A DNA stretch of 34,709 nucleotides. It comes from Clostridiaceae bacterium. GTDB lineage: Bacteria; Bacillota; Clostridia; Saccharofermentanales; DTU023. The stretch's first letter is position 1. The number at the start of each line of letters is the position of its first letter. Under the pieces are notes generated by a model that saw only the letters and a list, made by a program, of their open reading frames with translations, was not told where the DNA came from and made no database searches. The stretch spans positions 1 to 34,709 of the forward strand of contig JAAYNE010000121.1 in the NCBI GenBank assembly GCA_012521015.1, read 5' to 3'. Both the position numbers and the translations under genes were made by a program. Below, piece by piece: positions 2,371 through 12,564 of this stretch.

Positions 2371-2479
2371 TTTCTATATAGTTTATTTGTAACTCAAATG
2401 TAATGAAAATAATTCTCCCGGATTCTTGACGAACTACAACATGTATGGTAGAAATATTAAGGAACAACTACATATAGTA

Positions 2480-2660
2480 CTTTCAAGTCGTCGCAAGACG
2501 TACATGGAAACAGGTGTAAATCCTGTGCGGTCCCGCCGCTGTAACGCTTATCGAATTTCACATAACCACTGAGCTTTAAGCTTGGGAAGGGTGAAAGGGG
2601 AGCGAAGCCAGAATACATGTCTTGAAAGGTATCCGTGTCACGATGTATGACAGGAGCGGG
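2480..2660 (+). promoter_or_regulatory. Cobalamin (B12) riboswitch upstream of nrdD
   Basis: Conserved core: GGAAACAGGTGTAAATCCTGTGCGGTCCCGCCGCTGTAA, then CCACTG, then GGGAAGGGTGAAAGGGGAGCGAAGCCAGAATAC (B12 box). P1-like pairing ctttcaag (2480-2487) with cttgaaag (2621-2628). Candidate L5-L13 kissing pair CCCGC (2532-2536) with GCGGG (2656-2660). Confidence 0.93.
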
Positions 2661-2701
2661 TAAACATATTGCAGATTTTTCGATATCTATATTTTGTTTA
2701 T

Positions 2702-2729
2702 AACTCTCTTCTGTCGGAAGGGAGTTTTT
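2702..2729 (+). promoter_or_regulatory. Expression-platform hairpin masking the nrdD Shine-Dalgarno (terminator-like)
   Basis: aactctctt (2702-2710) pairs with aagggagtt (2718-2726) over 9 bp with one G-U, plus a closing C-G. The 3' arm contains the SD aagggag and is followed by TTTTT immediately before ATG 2730. Confidence 0.75.
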
Positions 2730-5039
2730 ATGTTAAATAGAGCAGGGTTGGCGTACCCGAAGAACATTCTTAAACGCGATGGTTCGTTGATGCCTTTTGA
2801 TGCTTATAAAATCCGCCAAGCTATCAGTAAGGCAAATCGTACAATACCAAGTGAAACAATGAGCGATCAGGACTTGGATGCGATTACTGCTAATGTTGTA
2901 CGCAAGCTTCAGGATGCAGACACTCCGGGAGTAGAACAAATACAAGACATTGTTGAGTTAGAATTGATGAGTTTTGGTGTTGTGCGTACTGCGAAGGCTT
3001 ATGTTCTCTATAGAGCAGAGCATGCTAAACGCAGACAGGCAGCAAACAATCTTATGGAGAGTTATAAGCAAATTACTTTTACCGACTCGCTCGACAGTGA
3101 CTTGAAAAGAGAAAATGCCAACATAGACGGCAATACTGCAATGGGTACTATGTTGAAGTACGGCTCCGAGGGGGCAAAATCTTTTGTTGATAACTATGTT
3201 TTACCGGAAGATATGGCACATGCACATGCTGACGGTTTGATCCATATCCATGACAAAGATTTTTATATGCTGACGGCAACTTGCTGTCAAATTGATTTGC
3301 AAAAGCTTTTTGCACATGGATTTTCAACCGGTCACGGACATTTAAGGAGCCCGCAAAGCATTGAAAGTTATGCTGCTCTTGCCTGTATTGCAATACAGGC
3401 TAATCAAAATGAAATGCATGGAGGACAGAGTATTCCGGACTTTGACTATGCTATGGCGGAGGGTGTGAATAAAAGCTTCCGCAAGCATCTTGCTGATGTG
3501 CGAAATAGTCTTGAAGATTTGACAAGCGTTTTATATTATTCATCTTCCAATGCAGAGAACTCAGAAAACGCCGGTACTGAATTGCTGAAAAAATTAGATG
3601 GCAAGAGTTACGATGACTTATTGACTATGATGGCAGAGCTTGAAGAAGGGAAAGAAGAATATACATTATTGGATATTATTAATAAACGCACGATTCGCAG
3701 CACAAATCAGGCGATGCAGGCTTTAATCCATAATTTAAATACGATGAATTCAAGGGCAGGGGCGCAAGTTCCTTTCAGTTCTCTTAATTACGGAACAGAT
3801 ACTTCAGAAGCCGGTCGTCTGGTAATTCGTGAATTGTTGCATGCAACCTGGGACGGCTTGGGCAGAGGCGAAACGGCTATTTTTCCGGTGCAGATTTTTA
3901 AGGTGAAAGATGGCATCAATACTAAGCCGAGCGACAAAAATTACGATCTATTTAAACTAGCCGTAAAAGTTTCTGCAAGAAGATTGTTTCCCAATTTCAG
4001 CTTTCTCGATGCTCCTTATAACATTGCTTTTTATAAAGAGGGTGACAGTAATTCCGAGGTGGCATATATGGGCTGTCGAACAAGAGTTATAAGTAATGCT
4101 TATGATCCGAATCATGAGTGCACCAAAGGTAGAGGGAATCTAAGCTTTACGTCCATTAATCTGGTACGTCTCGGTATTGAGGCAAGGGGTGATTTAGAAA
4201 AATTTTATCAAAGTCTCGATCAAACGATGGAGCTTGTTTTTCGTCAGTTGAGACAGCGTTTTGAAATTCAACGCAGAAAAAAAGCGAAAAATTATCCCTT
4301 CCTCATGGGACAGGGCTTATGGCTGGGTTCCGAACACTTGGAAGAGGATGAAGAATTAACAGAGATTTGGAAGCACGGTACACTTTCTCTTGGTTTTATC
4401 GGACTGGCGGAGTGTCTTGTTGCTTTGACCGGAAATCATCATGGTGAATCTAATGAAAGTCAGAAATTGGGTCTTGAGATTATTACTCACATGCGTAAAA
4501 AATGTGATGAGCGCACGCAAGCGGAGCTATTGAATTACACATTACTGGCGACCCCGGCGGAAGGGCTCTCCGGTCGTTTTGTCAATATTGACAGAGAACG
4601 TTTCGGAAAGCTCCCCGGGATTACCGATCGAGAATACTATACAAATTCTTTTCATATACCTGTGTACTTTCCGATTTCAGCAACGAGAAAAATCGATCTT
4701 GAAGCCCCCTATCATGCTTTGACGAATGCCGGGCATATCTCCTACATTGAGATGGATGGTGATCCTTTGCAGAACCTTGAAGCCTTTGAACAATTAATTC
4801 TTTACATGAAAGAAAGAGAGATAGGCTACGGGTCAATTAATCACCCTATTGATCATGATCCCATTTGCGGCTATAGCGGCATTATCGGTGATGTATGCCC
4901 CGGCTGCGGCAGAAAAGAGAGTGAGGGACCACGTTTTCATCGTATCCGTCGTATCACGGGATATCTCGTTGGAACTGTAGACCGTTTTAATGATGCTAAG
5001 AGAAAGGAGCTTTTTGATCGTGAAAAACACTCCCTATAA
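2730..5039 (+). CDS. nrdD: Anaerobic (class III) ribonucleoside-triphosphate reductase
   Basis: ATP-cone N-terminus (PKNILKRDGSLMPFDAYKIRQAI), C-terminal zinc site (CGYSGIIGDVCPGCG) and glycyl-radical loop (RRITGYLVGTVDRFN). Start moved from the track's TTG 2694 to ATG 2730, which has an SD. Confidence 0.96.
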   Translation: MLNRAGLAYPKNILKRDGSLMPFDAYKIRQAISKANRTIPSETMSDQDLDAITANVVRKLQDADTPGVEQIQDIVELELMSFGVVRTAKAYVLYRAEHAKRRQAANNLMESYKQITFTDSLDSDLKRENANIDGNTAMGTMLKYGSEGAKSFVDNYVLPEDMAHAHADGLIHIHDKDFYMLTATCCQIDLQKLFAHGFSTGHGHLRSPQSIESYAALACIAIQANQNEMHGGQSIPDFDYAMAEGVNKSFRKHLADVRNSLEDLTSVLYYSSSNAENSENAGTELLKKLDGKSYDDLLTMMAELEEGKEEYTLLDIINKRTIRSTNQAMQALIHNLNTMNSRAGAQVPFSSLNYGTDTSEAGRLVIRELLHATWDGLGRGETAIFPVQIFKVKDGINTKPSDKNYDLFKLAVKVSARRLFPNFSFLDAPYNIAFYKEGDSNSEVAYMGCRTRVISNAYDPNHECTKGRGNLSFTSINLVRLGIEARGDLEKFYQSLDQTMELVFRQLRQRFEIQRRKKAKNYPFLMGQGLWLGSEHLEEDEELTEIWKHGTLSLGFIGLAECLVALTGNHHGESNESQKLGLEIITHMRKKCDERTQAELLNYTLLATPAEGLSGRFVNIDRERFGKLPGITDREYYTNSFHIPVYFPISATRKIDLEAPYHALTNAGHISYIEMDGDPLQNLEAFEQLILYMKEREIGYGSINHPIDHDPICGYSGIIGDVCPGCGRKESEGPRFHRIRRITGYLVGTVDRFNDAKRKELFDREKHSL

Positions 5040-5565
5040 ATATGCAGAAGATGCTTACCTTCATCTGGCCGGTCTGGAAAAACATTCTATTGTTGATGGT
5101 CCGGGGATCAGGATGGTGGTATTTGCACAAGGCTGTCCTCACCGTTGTCCCGGTTGTCATAATCCGGAAACCCACTTACCACTTGGCGGTGAAAAGCGGT
5201 CAGTAGATGAACTGCTTGTATACTATGAAGAAAGCAATTTGCTGCGTGGCGTAACGCTATCCGGCGGTGAACCTTTTTGGCAGGCAAAGGCATTTTCTTG
5301 CTTAGCAAAAGCCATACGTGAGCGAGGCGGTGATGTAATAACGTATACCGGATATTATTATGAGGTTTTACAGAAAATGAATGATCCGGACGTTGATGCT
5401 CTCATTTCCTATACCGATTTGCTGATAGATGGTCCTTTCATAAAAGAATTGAAAACTTTGACACTGGCTTTTCGCGGTTCCAGCAATCAGCGACTTATTC
5501 CCTTAAGTGAAGCAGGGAAAGAACTTTGTCAAATCATAGAATTAGCACAAGTAGTACATTTTTAA
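5020..5565 (+). CDS. nrdG: Anaerobic RNR activating protein (radical SAM)
   Basis: CPHRCPGCHN (CxxxCxxC), SGGEPFWQ. Probable GTG start at 5020 with SD aaaggag about 8 nt upstream; overlaps the nrdD 3' end. Confidence 0.93.
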   Translation: MKNTPYKYAEDAYLHLAGLEKHSIVDGPGIRMVVFAQGCPHRCPGCHNPETHLPLGGEKRSVDELLVYYEESNLLRGVTLSGGEPFWQAKAFSCLAKAIRERGGDVITYTGYYYEVLQKMNDPDVDALISYTDLLIDGPFIKELKTLTLAFRGSSNQRLIPLSEAGKELCQIIELAQVVHF

Positions 5566-7998: not shown

Positions 7999-9081
7999 TT
8001 AATAACCTAACTCATCTACCGGCGAATTATGGATTCCGTGTGGGATTAGTGGAACTTCATAAATCTCATACAATTCAGAAACCGTGACAAAACGATAATT
8101 TTGTTCGTATAGGATAGGTAAACTTTGTTTCAAAGCTTCAAGTGTCTCGGGAAATAAAGAATGCATGAGGATTACTGATCCGGGTCTGGTATTTTCTATG
8201 GAATTGCTAATTAAATTTGCATTTCGCAAACGCCAGTCTTCAGTATCATGATTCCAAATAATATGAGGATATGGTAAAGCTTCCAGAACTGAATCATTAT
8301 AAGCACCATATGGCGGACGGATCATAGTAGGGGTAATACCCGTATACTCCTTAATTTTTTCATTTGTCAGATTAATTTCTGCAAGTAATTCTTCATGCGA
8401 TAATGTTGTTAAATCCGGATGACTGAATGAGTGATTAGCGATTTCAGAACCTTGTTCTGCGATTGCTTTTACAGTATCTGAATAATAATCTATTCGACTT
8501 CCAACCAGGAAAAATGTGGCATGAGCATTATATTCGTTTAACAAATCTAAAATTTCCAAATCAACTTCATCGTATGGACCGTCGTCAAAGGTCAGAGCAA
8601 TATAATTATAATCAACTAAAGAGTATAAGGATTTCTCTGAAGCTGAAGGTTCGGTCGTTTCGCCGGGTTGGTTTTTTTCAGGATCCGAAGTATCAGATTC
8701 TTTAGAATTTGCAGGATCTGAATCAGATTCAGAAATCGTTTTTTCAGTTTTTTCGCTACTAATACTTGATAAATCTATGATTGAGTGTAGGGTATTGCCG
8801 TCCTGATTGATGTTTTGCTCTTGACTATTCAAGGAATTTTGTTCAAGAGAATTATGTTCATCAGTCGGATCAATTTGACTTTGCTGATCGGTTTGCTTTA
8901 AATTGTTTTCGGAGATCGAATCTGGAGCGTCTTGCATGACTAATCGGGCTGTGCTTTTAATTTTTTGTGAATTTAAAAGAAACAAAATAATGACTGCAAT
9001 AATTAGCAATCCACTGAGTACAGGAGCTACAATTTTCAGGATATTTCTTTTTTGATGTTCTTTATTATGTTCTTTATTCAT
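7999..9081 (-). CDS. Membrane-anchored polysaccharide deacetylase (NodB homology domain)
   Basis: N-terminal TM (ILKIVAPVLSGLLIIAVIILFLL), Ser/Glu/Asp-rich linker, YIALTFDDGPYDE, NHSFSHPDLTTLS, RPPYGAYN, HDTEDWR. Confidence 0.92.
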   Translation of the reverse strand: MNKEHNKEHQKRNILKIVAPVLSGLLIIAVIILFLLNSQKIKSTARLVMQDAPDSISENNLKQTDQQSQIDPTDEHNSLEQNSLNSQEQNINQDGNTLHSIIDLSSISSEKTEKTISESDSDPANSKESDTSDPEKNQPGETTEPSASEKSLYSLVDYNYIALTFDDGPYDEVDLEILDLLNEYNAHATFFLVGSRIDYYSDTVKAIAEQGSEIANHSFSHPDLTTLSHEELLAEINLTNEKIKEYTGITPTMIRPPYGAYNDSVLEALPYPHIIWNHDTEDWRLRNANLISNSIENTRPGSVILMHSLFPETLEALKQSLPILYEQNYRFVTVSELYEIYEVPLIPHGIHNSPVDELGY

Positions 9082-9216
9082 GGTTTGACTTTATTTAATA
9101 ATATCATAATATCTATATGTTAAAATAAAAAAGTTTAATTGTGAAGGGCAGTAATAGATAATTAATAAAACATAAGCAAATTTTAAAGAATAAAGTATAG
9201 AAGAAGTGGAAAATCA

Positions 9217-9264
9217 ATGAGTTTATGTAAGTTAATTACCTTAAAAAATAGGAGGAATGAATGA
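9217..9264 (+). other. Possible 15-codon leader ORF overlapping the rnr start (MSLCKLITLKNRRNE*)
   Basis: ATG at 9217; stop TGA 9262-9264 overlaps rnr ATG 9261-9263 (ATGA). Its AGG AGG codons coincide with the rnr SD (aggagg). Weak SD of its own. Confidence 0.3.
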
Positions 9265-11192
9265 ACGCATTAGTGGGTGTATTACGCCAAAACGGCAAGC
9301 ATGGAATTGTTGAATTGGATCGTAAAAATGATGAACTAGGTGCGCGAATTAATATACCTCGAAAATTTCTTTATGGTGCTCCATTCAATATGAAAGTGGT
9401 TTGCGATTATAAGGGGACAGATTCCGGAGGTGAACCTTGGGGTTCGGTAATTGAAGTTTTAGGGGAAGAAGGAAATCCGGATACTGCAATTTTGGGGATA
9501 ATCAAGCATTATAATTTACCTTTGGAATTTCCCTCCGGAGTTCTTGAACAAGCGAAATCTTTCGGTAATAATATATCGGAACAGGAGATTGCCGAAGAAA
9601 TTAATCAGGGCAGAGTGGATCTGCGTGATTTGCCGACACTTACAATTGACGGTGAGGATGCAAAAGATTTAGATGATGCAATTGATATAGAAAAGCTGGA
9701 AAATGGAAATTATTTGCTTTATGTCCATATAGCTGACGTATCGCACTATATAAAAGACAAATCTGAATTGGATCAGGAAGCTTTCAAAAGAGGCAATAGT
9801 GTATATTTGGTTGACCGGGTAATCCCGATGTATCCGCCGCAATTGTCTAATGGAATTTGCAGTTTGAATCCGGATCAGGATCGTTTTGCTTTCACGGCAG
9901 AAATGGAGATTAATCATCAGGGAAAAGTTGTTAAAGGAAAACTTTATCCTTCAGTTATTTGCAGCAAAGTCAGAACTTCGTACAATGAAACTCAATCGAT
10001 TCTGAATGGAGAAGAGGTTGGCGAGGATCGACCGGATTGGCTTAGAAATCAATTATTTTTGATGAAGGAATTGACCGATATTTTACAAGCAATGCGCAAA
10101 AGACGTGGAGCTTTGGAATTTGAATTTCCTGAAATAAAAATTGATTTGGATAATGCAGGTAATCCTACGGATATTTATCCGGAACCGGATCTTTATACTC
10201 ATCATATGATTGAATCTTTTATGATTGCGGCAAATGAATATGTTGGCGATTTGGCGCAAAAACATAAAATTCCGATTATTTATCGGGTACATGAATTGCC
10301 TGATCCGGAAAAATTGAATGTTTTTGCTGCATTAGCAAAACGGTTTAATATCAGACTACAAATTGATTATGAAAAACCGGAACCGAAAGAACTGGCAAAA
10401 GCACTTGAAGAAATGAAAGATCAACCATATGGTTTAACTCTTTCCACAATGTTGTTGCGCTCATTAGCAAAAGCCCGCTATAGCGAGAAAAATTTAGGTC
10501 ATTTCGGTTTAGCTTCAGAGAATTATTGTCATTTTACAGCACCGATCAGAAGATATTCCGATACATATACTCACCGTAGCCTGAAACACTGGTTGGCTGG
10601 GCAAGGCAAAGCCGGCAAGGAATCTTTAAAACGTGCTAATCGAATTAGCGATCACGTTTCAGATACGGAAAGAATAGCTATTGATGCAGAACGCGATACG
10701 GTGGATCAAAAAGCGGCGGAATATTATGCTGACAAAATTGGTGAGATATTTGACGGAAAAATCTCCGGATTTGCACCGGCAAGCATGTTTGTGCAATTGG
10801 AATCGCTAGTCGAAGGTGCAGTCTTTTTTAGAAATCTAAACGGCTATTATGAATATGACCCGGAGCAATTTATTGCAATCAACCGAGACACCGGTGATGT
10901 TTTATCTTTAGGCCAAAAAGTAAAAGTTCAAATTGCGGCAGTTGATACGAATCGTCGTTTTATTGATTTTACTTTATTGGAACATGATACTGCCTGTACA
11001 AATAATAACGGGTATTATAGAGATTCTCGAAATGAACCTAATTCTAAACTGAATAAAAAACGAAAAATGGCTGCAAAATCGTATGGCAAAACGAAAAAAG
11101 TCAAATCATCCGGGGATAATATTGAACATAATCCTTTTTCGAGACGAAAGCGCTCAAAATTGAAAAAAAGGCGTAAAGACAGAAGGAGATAA
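9261..11192 (+). CDS. rnr: Ribonuclease R family 3'-5' exoribonuclease, short N-terminus
   Basis: DLPTLTIDGEDAKDLDDAIDIE, YVHIADVSHYIKDKSELDQEAFKRGNSVYLVDRVIPMYPPQLSNGICSLNP, HFTAPIRRYSD, S1-like C-terminus and Lys/Arg-rich tail. SD aggagg before ATG. Confidence 0.94.
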   Translation: MNALVGVLRQNGKHGIVELDRKNDELGARINIPRKFLYGAPFNMKVVCDYKGTDSGGEPWGSVIEVLGEEGNPDTAILGIIKHYNLPLEFPSGVLEQAKSFGNNISEQEIAEEINQGRVDLRDLPTLTIDGEDAKDLDDAIDIEKLENGNYLLYVHIADVSHYIKDKSELDQEAFKRGNSVYLVDRVIPMYPPQLSNGICSLNPDQDRFAFTAEMEINHQGKVVKGKLYPSVICSKVRTSYNETQSILNGEEVGEDRPDWLRNQLFLMKELTDILQAMRKRRGALEFEFPEIKIDLDNAGNPTDIYPEPDLYTHHMIESFMIAANEYVGDLAQKHKIPIIYRVHELPDPEKLNVFAALAKRFNIRLQIDYEKPEPKELAKALEEMKDQPYGLTLSTMLLRSLAKARYSEKNLGHFGLASENYCHFTAPIRRYSDTYTHRSLKHWLAGQGKAGKESLKRANRISDHVSDTERIAIDAERDTVDQKAAEYYADKIGEIFDGKISGFAPASMFVQLESLVEGAVFFRNLNGYYEYDPEQFIAINRDTGDVLSLGQKVKVQIAAVDTNRRFIDFTLLEHDTACTNNNGYYRDSRNEPNSKLNKKRKMAAKSYGKTKKVKSSGDNIEHNPFSRRKRSKLKKRRKDRRR

Positions 11193-11193
11193 T

Positions 11194-12564
11194 TTGCCGA
11201 AATTATACATACATAGCTTAGGTTGCAAAACAAATCATTATGAAACTCAGGCACTGGTTCAACAATTATCAGAGCATAATTTTGAATTGGTTGAAAAAAT
11301 GCAAGATGCCGATGTAGGAATTTTGAATACCTGTACGGTAACTGCTGAAGCAGGGCGAAAATCCAGACAATTTCTCCGCAGAATGAAAAAGCAAAATCCG
11401 GCAGCTCTGATTGTTGCAATGGGTTGTTATTCACAATTATACGATGTTACAAAAGATTGCGACATTGCGGTCGGAACAAGCCGGAGAAATTCAATTGTTG
11501 ATCTGATTTTAAATAAATTGCCAATTCTTAATCCAGAGCAAATTAAACCGATGTCTTCGAGTAGAAATAACAATGAAAAGGAAACAATTTCTGTTCAAAG
11601 ACAACCTGAACCAAGACTTTTAAGTAAAATTAGTAATGAAACCGAATATGAAGAATTGGGTATTGTTTCTCAACAGTCAGATACCAGAGCCTTGATTAAA
11701 ATTCAGGATGGCTGTAATGAATTCTGCACTTACTGTGCAATTCCTTTGGCAAGAGGTCGAATTCGAAGCAGAATCAGGCGAAATATTGTAAAAGAAGCGG
11801 AAAGATTGGTTGAATGCGGTTTTAAAGAAATTGTTTTAACAGGCATCCACATTTGTTCGTTTGAAAGGGAATCAGGTCGCAGTAGTGATGCTCTAGCCGA
11901 ACTTTGTCTTGAATTGAACAGTGTACCGGGCTTATCTAGAATCAGATTAGGTTCATTGGAGCCTTTGTCAATTACACAATCATTTCTCAACATTTTACGT
12001 CAAGCGGACAAGGTATGTCCACATTTTCATCTCTCATTACAATCCGGGAGTGACAGTGTATTAAAAAGAATGCATAGAAAATATAATTCCGAACAATATT
12101 TGACAAGAGTTCAACTTCTACGTGAAATCTATCCTGACCCTGCGATTACAACGGATATCATGGTGGGTTTTCCGGGAGAAACGGATAAAGAATTTGAACA
12201 GAGTTTGGCATTTGTCAAAAAAATAAATTTCAGTAGAATTCATGTGTTTCCCTATTCGCTTAGGCCGAATACTTTGGCGGCGAAAATGGAACAAGTTCCG
12301 CAAGATATTGTTAAGCGTAGAGTACAACATATGTTGGAGGCAGGTGAAATTTTAGCTGCAAAATATGCTGAAAAGTTCATAAATATAATAGTTGAAGTTT
12401 TACTGGAAGATGTCACCGAAGCCGAATCTGAATCATTTATCAGAGGATATACACAACATTATGTACGTACCCTGATTCCGAAAAAACAAGGTAAAACCGG
12501 AGAAATTAAAAATGTTTTAATATCCGATACGCAAAATGATGAATTAATTGGTAGAATTGTATGA
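11194..12564 (+). CDS. mtaB: tRNA (N6-L-threonylcarbamoyladenosine-C2)-methylthiotransferase MtaB
   Basis: MPKLYIHSLGCKTNHYETQALVQQL, NTCTVTAEAGRKSRQFLRR, CNEFCTYCAIPLARGRIRSR, VGFPGETDKEF. TTG start with SD aaggag in the rnr 3' end. Confidence 0.93.
   Translation: MPKLYIHSLGCKTNHYETQALVQQLSEHNFELVEKMQDADVGILNTCTVTAEAGRKSRQFLRRMKKQNPAALIVAMGCYSQLYDVTKDCDIAVGTSRRNSIVDLILNKLPILNPEQIKPMSSSRNNNEKETISVQRQPEPRLLSKISNETEYEELGIVSQQSDTRALIKIQDGCNEFCTYCAIPLARGRIRSRIRRNIVKEAERLVECGFKEIVLTGIHICSFERESGRSSDALAELCLELNSVPGLSRIRLGSLEPLSITQSFLNILRQADKVCPHFHLSLQSGSDSVLKRMHRKYNSEQYLTRVQLLREIYPDPAITTDIMVGFPGETDKEFEQSLAFVKKINFSRIHVFPYSLRPNTLAAKMEQVPQDIVKRRVQHMLEAGEILAAKYAEKFINIIVEVLLEDVTEAESESFIRGYTQHYVRTLIPKKQGKTGEIKNVLISDTQNDELIGRIV

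Follow-up and report, generated by a model that had tools for sequence, protein, structure and literature searches.

The class III ribonucleotide reductase genes nrdDG of this Clostridiaceae genome are very probably controlled by a cobalamin OFF-riboswitch that favors the class II enzyme NrdJ when corrinoid is available. The sequence analyzed, referred to here as the window, is a single contig of 34,709 nucleotides from a draft metagenome bin (2.08 Mb, 156 contigs, 89.5% complete), the near relatives of which are biogas-reactor bins named "Clostridiaceae" and "Mageeibacillus." The genome was searched family by family, and because the assembly is incomplete to this degree, the absences of genes reported below are provisional.

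The nrdDG genes and their cobalamin aptamer

In the window, a pyruvate, phosphate dikinase gene ending at 2288 is followed by the aptamer, nrdD, and nrdG (Table 1). The aptamer match covers all of RF00174 (model positions 1-189 of 189; cmscan), including the conserved core, ends 91 bases before the nrdD ATG, and is the sole Rfam match across the whole window. The first-pass annotation had placed a B12 riboswitch directly ahead of nrdD-nrdG, and running the Rfam cobalamin model confirms this with a score far above its cut-off and with both genes full length; only the riboswitch's start, which had been put at 2480, was misjudged, the first 11 bases having been missed. The same leader-nrdDG arrangement is found in eight relatives. 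All nine leaders compared (G000, G003, G004, G007, G009, G021, G026, G027, and G046) share a common order of promoter region, aptamer, P13 hairpin, a hairpin that holds the Shine-Dalgarno sequence and is followed by a U-run, and start codon.

Table 1. Features of the nrdDG locus, in window coordinates
Feature	Position	Strand	Basis
Likely sigma-70 promoter (TTGACG, 17 bases, TAGAAA)	2426-2454	+	Sequence reading
NrdR-like box 1, CTACAACATGTATGGT	2434-2449	.	6 mismatches from consensus
NrdR-like box 2, CAACTACATATAGTAC	2465-2480	.	5 mismatches from consensus
Cobalamin riboswitch aptamer (RF00174, full length)	2469-2638	+	85.2 bits (gathering 31.5), E 7.8e-20
P13 hairpin (TGTCA CGATGTA TGACA)	2636-2652	+	Minimum-energy folds; form kept in nine leaders
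Antiterminator strand GACAGGAG, overlapping the P13 3' arm	2648-2655	+	8-pair complement of 2708-2715
Terminator-like hairpin, then U-run	2702-2726	+	Terminator scan and folds; layout shared by nine leaders
nrdD, class III anaerobic ribonucleoside-triphosphate reductase with ATP-cone (769 aa)	2730-5039	+	Profile matches
nrdG, glycyl-radical activase	5020-5565	+	TIGR02491, 130.8 bits (cut-off 126.1)

All features of a class III reductase are present, namely, the NRDD domain, a glycyl-radical motif, Zn-site cysteines, and an adjacent radical-SAM activase. NrdD matches NF005497 (1072 bits), TIGR02487 (NrdD; 604 bits), PF13597 (654.8 bits), and an ATP-cone; in the translated sequence its glycyl-radical end reads RRITGYLVG and the Zn-site cysteines lie in CGY and CPGCG. 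A longer nrdD frame starting with TTG at 2694 was rejected, as it would run through the leader terminator hairpin. For nrdG, the GTG at 5020, which lies behind AAAGGAG, appears likelier as the start than the ATG at 4990 that opens the longest frame.

In four relatives (G020, G024, G031, and G034), nrdD ends beyond the Zn-site, and a separate 49-residue frame before nrdG encodes the glycyl-radical tail (loci L018 to L021; in L020, 1414-3717 and 3796-3945, with the tail beginning MISKHATVGEGVNFQRIRRITGYLVGTTDRFNDAK). This small frame is preceded by AAGGAG in three of the four and by the purine-rich AGAGGAAG in the fourth, and no riboswitch was found upstream of nrdD at any of these four loci. 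Between the most distant pairs, differences were synonymous in 25 codons against 9, and 32 of 48 fell at third positions; since the differences are mainly of these kinds, the tail frame seems to be under selection at the protein level. Phages are known to carry split nrdD genes, some of these, several in number, with introns or inteins (PMC3653736), and a limited literature search found no report of a free-standing bacterial NrdD glycyl-radical subunit.

Alternative helices in the leader, and NrdR-like boxes

The antiterminator strand GACAGGAG forms a predicted duplex of -15.9 kcal/mol with positions 2708-2715 (CTTCTGTC), which is better than shuffled sequences (p 0.0035). As CTTCTGTC makes up the 5' arm and loop of the hairpin at 2702-2726, pairing of the P13 3' strand with it and formation of that hairpin are mutually exclusive. 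The 3' arm of the hairpin, GGAAGGGAG, is the nrdD Shine-Dalgarno sequence, and the hairpin can therefore also block translation. The overlap of P13, antiterminator, and terminator strands is conserved in six leaders, in all of which the duplex beats shuffles (p 0.0005-0.02). In G026 and G007, GACAGGAG and CTTCTGTC are replaced by GACAAAGAG or GACAAAAAG with CTTTTTGTC, compensatory changes that keep the pairing (p 0.0005 and 0.003, respectively). In G009, G027, and G046, the pairing is no better than in shuffles and could be chance complementarity; these leaders may use another arrangement. The pairing was judged sequence by sequence against shuffles, and not by pair counts from an alignment, because MAFFT did not place the terminator arms of the six expression platforms correctly. 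Taken as a whole, the leader does not fold with unusual stability relative to shuffles (z -1.16), and the terminator scan of the window returned one hairpin where 0.5 would be expected.

Read from its sequence, the layout of the leader is that of an OFF switch, with ligand and direction of switching assigned from the riboswitch family. When adenosylcobalamin or another corrinoid is bound, kissing between L5 and the P13 loop, its expected partner, would hold P13 closed, so that its 3' strand would be unavailable to 2708-2715 and the downstream hairpin would form. That hairpin would end transcription, hide the nrdD Shine-Dalgarno sequence, or both, leaving the cell without NrdDG and dependent on NrdJ. 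When corrinoid is scarce, P13 would open and its 3' strand would pair with 2708-2715, preventing the hairpin and allowing the B12-independent NrdDG to be made.

A less likely but plausible reading is that a genuine cobalamin riboswitch here acts mainly on translation by hiding the Shine-Dalgarno sequence, with no effective terminator. In all nine leaders, the hairpin's 3' arm contains the Shine-Dalgarno sequence, about 10 bases or less from the start codon; in the window, the U-run is short (TTTTT) and partly paired. However, the U-run reaches 6-7 in several relatives, the terminator scan did pick up the hairpin, and an intrinsic terminator was predicted for 37 of the 38 B12 riboswitches found functional in a Bacillus subtilis reporter study (PMC9600662). 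The two modes can operate together.

A likely sigma-70 promoter precedes the aptamer. Its TTGACG/TAGAAA pair was not reported by an automatic promoter scan of the window, and -35 and -10 elements at the same 17-base spacing occur in orthologous leaders (TTGACC/TATAAA in G021, TTGACA/CATTAT in G009, and TTGCAC/TATTCT in G026). Two NrdR-like boxes lie 31 bases apart in this region, and box 2 shares 12 bases with the start of the aptamer match. Scored against what we take to be the NrdR-box consensus, the pair is weak in the window (11 mismatches of 32; shuffle p 0.02). It occupies the same position in all nine leaders, and of the eight orthologous leaders seven give p < 0.01; the G026 boxes are near-perfect (1 and 2 mismatches), and the pair is also strong in G007. 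A strong NrdR-like box pair also precedes nrdJ, and the genome carries an nrdR gene (TIGR00244, 197 bits). NrdR reads dATP/ATP. Dual control of nrdDG by NrdR and the riboswitch seems likely, with NrdR probably repressing both nrdDG and nrdJ at the DNA level. We suggest, more tentatively and at slightly less than even confidence, that in an anaerobe that scavenges B12 this leader works as a compact device for three signals. Its parts would be an operator through which NrdR responds to dATP/ATP, with box 2 overlapping the DNA that encodes the 5' edge of the aptamer; the corrinoid aptamer itself; and a hairpin acting both as a transcription terminator and as a mask over the ribosome site. If so, dNTP status and B12 supplied by the community would be integrated within one stretch of roughly 300 bases.

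NrdJ, corrinoid supply, and the distribution of the riboswitch

From the placement of the riboswitch, the first-pass annotation had predicted that the genome would also carry a class II nrdJ, and exactly one, intact, was found (C130:14201-17401; NF005122, 1221 bits; TIGR02504, 559 bits; PF08471). Its product is the only PF02867 protein (class I/II large subunit) in the genome, on which ground a class I reductase was rejected as the alternative isozyme. The isozyme-switch reading of the first-pass annotation is supported, nrdJ being present and the nrdD riboswitch occurring only in nrdJ genomes among those examined; of the outcomes it named as refuting, neither a missing covariance-model match nor a missing nrdJ arose. 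NrdD works only under anaerobic conditions, whereas NrdJ is indifferent to oxygen, and the switch is therefore not one between two oxygen-compatible enzymes. Reductase content varies within the genus: the NrdD of G006 (L033) is a different one, sharing about 32% identity, and its gene lacks a riboswitch; in G001, neither a long NrdD nor NrdJ was seen.

A gene for a CobA/BtuR corrinoid adenosyltransferase, an enzyme that would make the active cofactor, follows nrdJ on the same strand at a distance of about 1 kb, with an aroK-like gene between the two in the opposite orientation; nrdJ and the adenosyltransferase gene together span L007 12652-17401. Family searches found neither CbiD nor CobS in the genome, and none of the seven genomes of the genus yielded CobS. 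Given that CbiD and CobS were not found, the corrinoid is probably imported, that is, the cell probably takes up an external supply. A FecBCD-type transporter encoded on contig C136, which carries no riboswitch, is a possible B12 importer, although its substrate could instead be iron or heme.

RF00174 has three matches in the genome, none of them anywhere on the nrdJ contig (L007). Besides the nrdD leader, a strong cobalamin riboswitch (87.7 bits) at L001 656-868 is followed by two terminator-like hairpins, and the next large gene, some 330 bases past it (L005 1196-4279), encodes a 7TM-GAF-GGDEF-EAL protein and is not a B12 gene. The third, at L006 8646-8819, precedes a gene (9032-12085) whose 1017-aa product is secreted, possibly anchored to the cell wall, and carries beta-propeller repeats of the PQQ type; it is a candidate for corrinoid binding at the cell surface.

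Every nrdD riboswitch seen so far sits in a genome that also has nrdJ. Among the relatives, nrdJ is present in 9/9 genomes with an nrdD riboswitch and in 7/9 without one (the exceptions being G017 and G028). In the wider collection, from which one duplicate was removed, the counts are 8/8 (seven Desulfovibrio-type genomes and one Mageeibacillus-named bin) and 11/41. The cultured species Desulfovibrio piger has both nrdJ and nrdDG, with a riboswitch at locus L111. Pooled over the 67 genomes with a window-type nrdD, nrdJ accompanies the riboswitch in 17 of 17 cases against 18 of the 50 genomes lacking it, some of whose loci have little upstream sequence; the Fisher p of 1.3e-6 was computed without correction for relatedness, and the lineages are not independent. 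On the NrdD tree, many rows of which are close kin, the riboswitch label needs 8 changes, of which at least 5 are required by branches with good support; shuffled labels need 15.5.

These several changes indicate that the riboswitch was gained or lost several times, and the 18 genomes that keep nrdD and nrdJ with no detected riboswitch show that the switch is not obligatory. Both observations could be taken to mean that the element is a relic, or that it senses corrinoid for reasons unrelated to nrdJ and marks no isozyme switch. We regard this as improbable: the aptamer is full length, the switch pairing is maintained with compensatory changes, nrdJ is present in every riboswitch genome, and the published cases have been interpreted alike, as an isozyme switch. 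That a chance match, or a misassembly in a draft bin of so many contigs, put another gene's riboswitch ahead of nrdDG can be dismissed, given the E value of 7.8e-20 and the recurrence of the junction in eight other assemblies (NrdD 63-93% identical) and in Desulfovibrio and the Mageeibacillus-named bin.

Comparison with known systems

For a B12-independent reductase under a B12 riboswitch, the first-pass annotation pointed to actinobacterial nrdAB; a nearer precedent exists, since nrdDG itself has been published in this setting (PMC545781 and PMC3848588). A tested parallel is the metE riboswitch with metH elsewhere, where a B12-independent isozyme is likewise repressed when the B12-dependent one can work (B. 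subtilis; PMC9600662), although the enzyme there is methionine synthase and not ribonucleotide reductase. Closer are Desulfovibrio vulgaris and Desulfuromonas, which have nrdJ and in which B12 elements have been described upstream of nrdDG (Genome Biol 2004, PMC545781). As in the window, the riboswitch lies directly ahead of nrdDG and nrdJ lies elsewhere, and the same repression of the B12-independent isozyme was proposed. These organisms belong to another phylum, and B12 elements also precede their genes for B12 synthesis or transport, whereas here CbiD and CobS were not found; NrdR is unmentioned in that report, whereas NrdR-like boxes are seen in the window leader. In Propionibacterium acnes, the nrdDG leader has been annotated with a cobalamin riboswitch and cobalamin repression has been proposed (BMC Genomics 2013, PMC3848588). 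There, too, nrdJ has no riboswitch and NrdR boxes occur at the nrd operons, but a class I nrdAB is also under a riboswitch, and the nrdDG boxes are found a long way downstream of the active promoter, whereas in the window they are at the promoter and touch the aptamer.

The arrangement itself has thus been known since 2004, and the window is a sound new example of it. What is new is the clostridial lineage, the proposed switching helices with their compensatory changes, and the count of nrdJ co-occurrence. The known rule that the B12-dependent reductase is used when B12 is available would thereby extend to clostridia of a lineage that yielded neither CbiD nor CobS, where B12 from neighboring organisms would decide which reductase makes DNA precursors. 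The 67-genome comparison also provides a broader check of an isozyme switch that was proposed in 2004 from few genomes.
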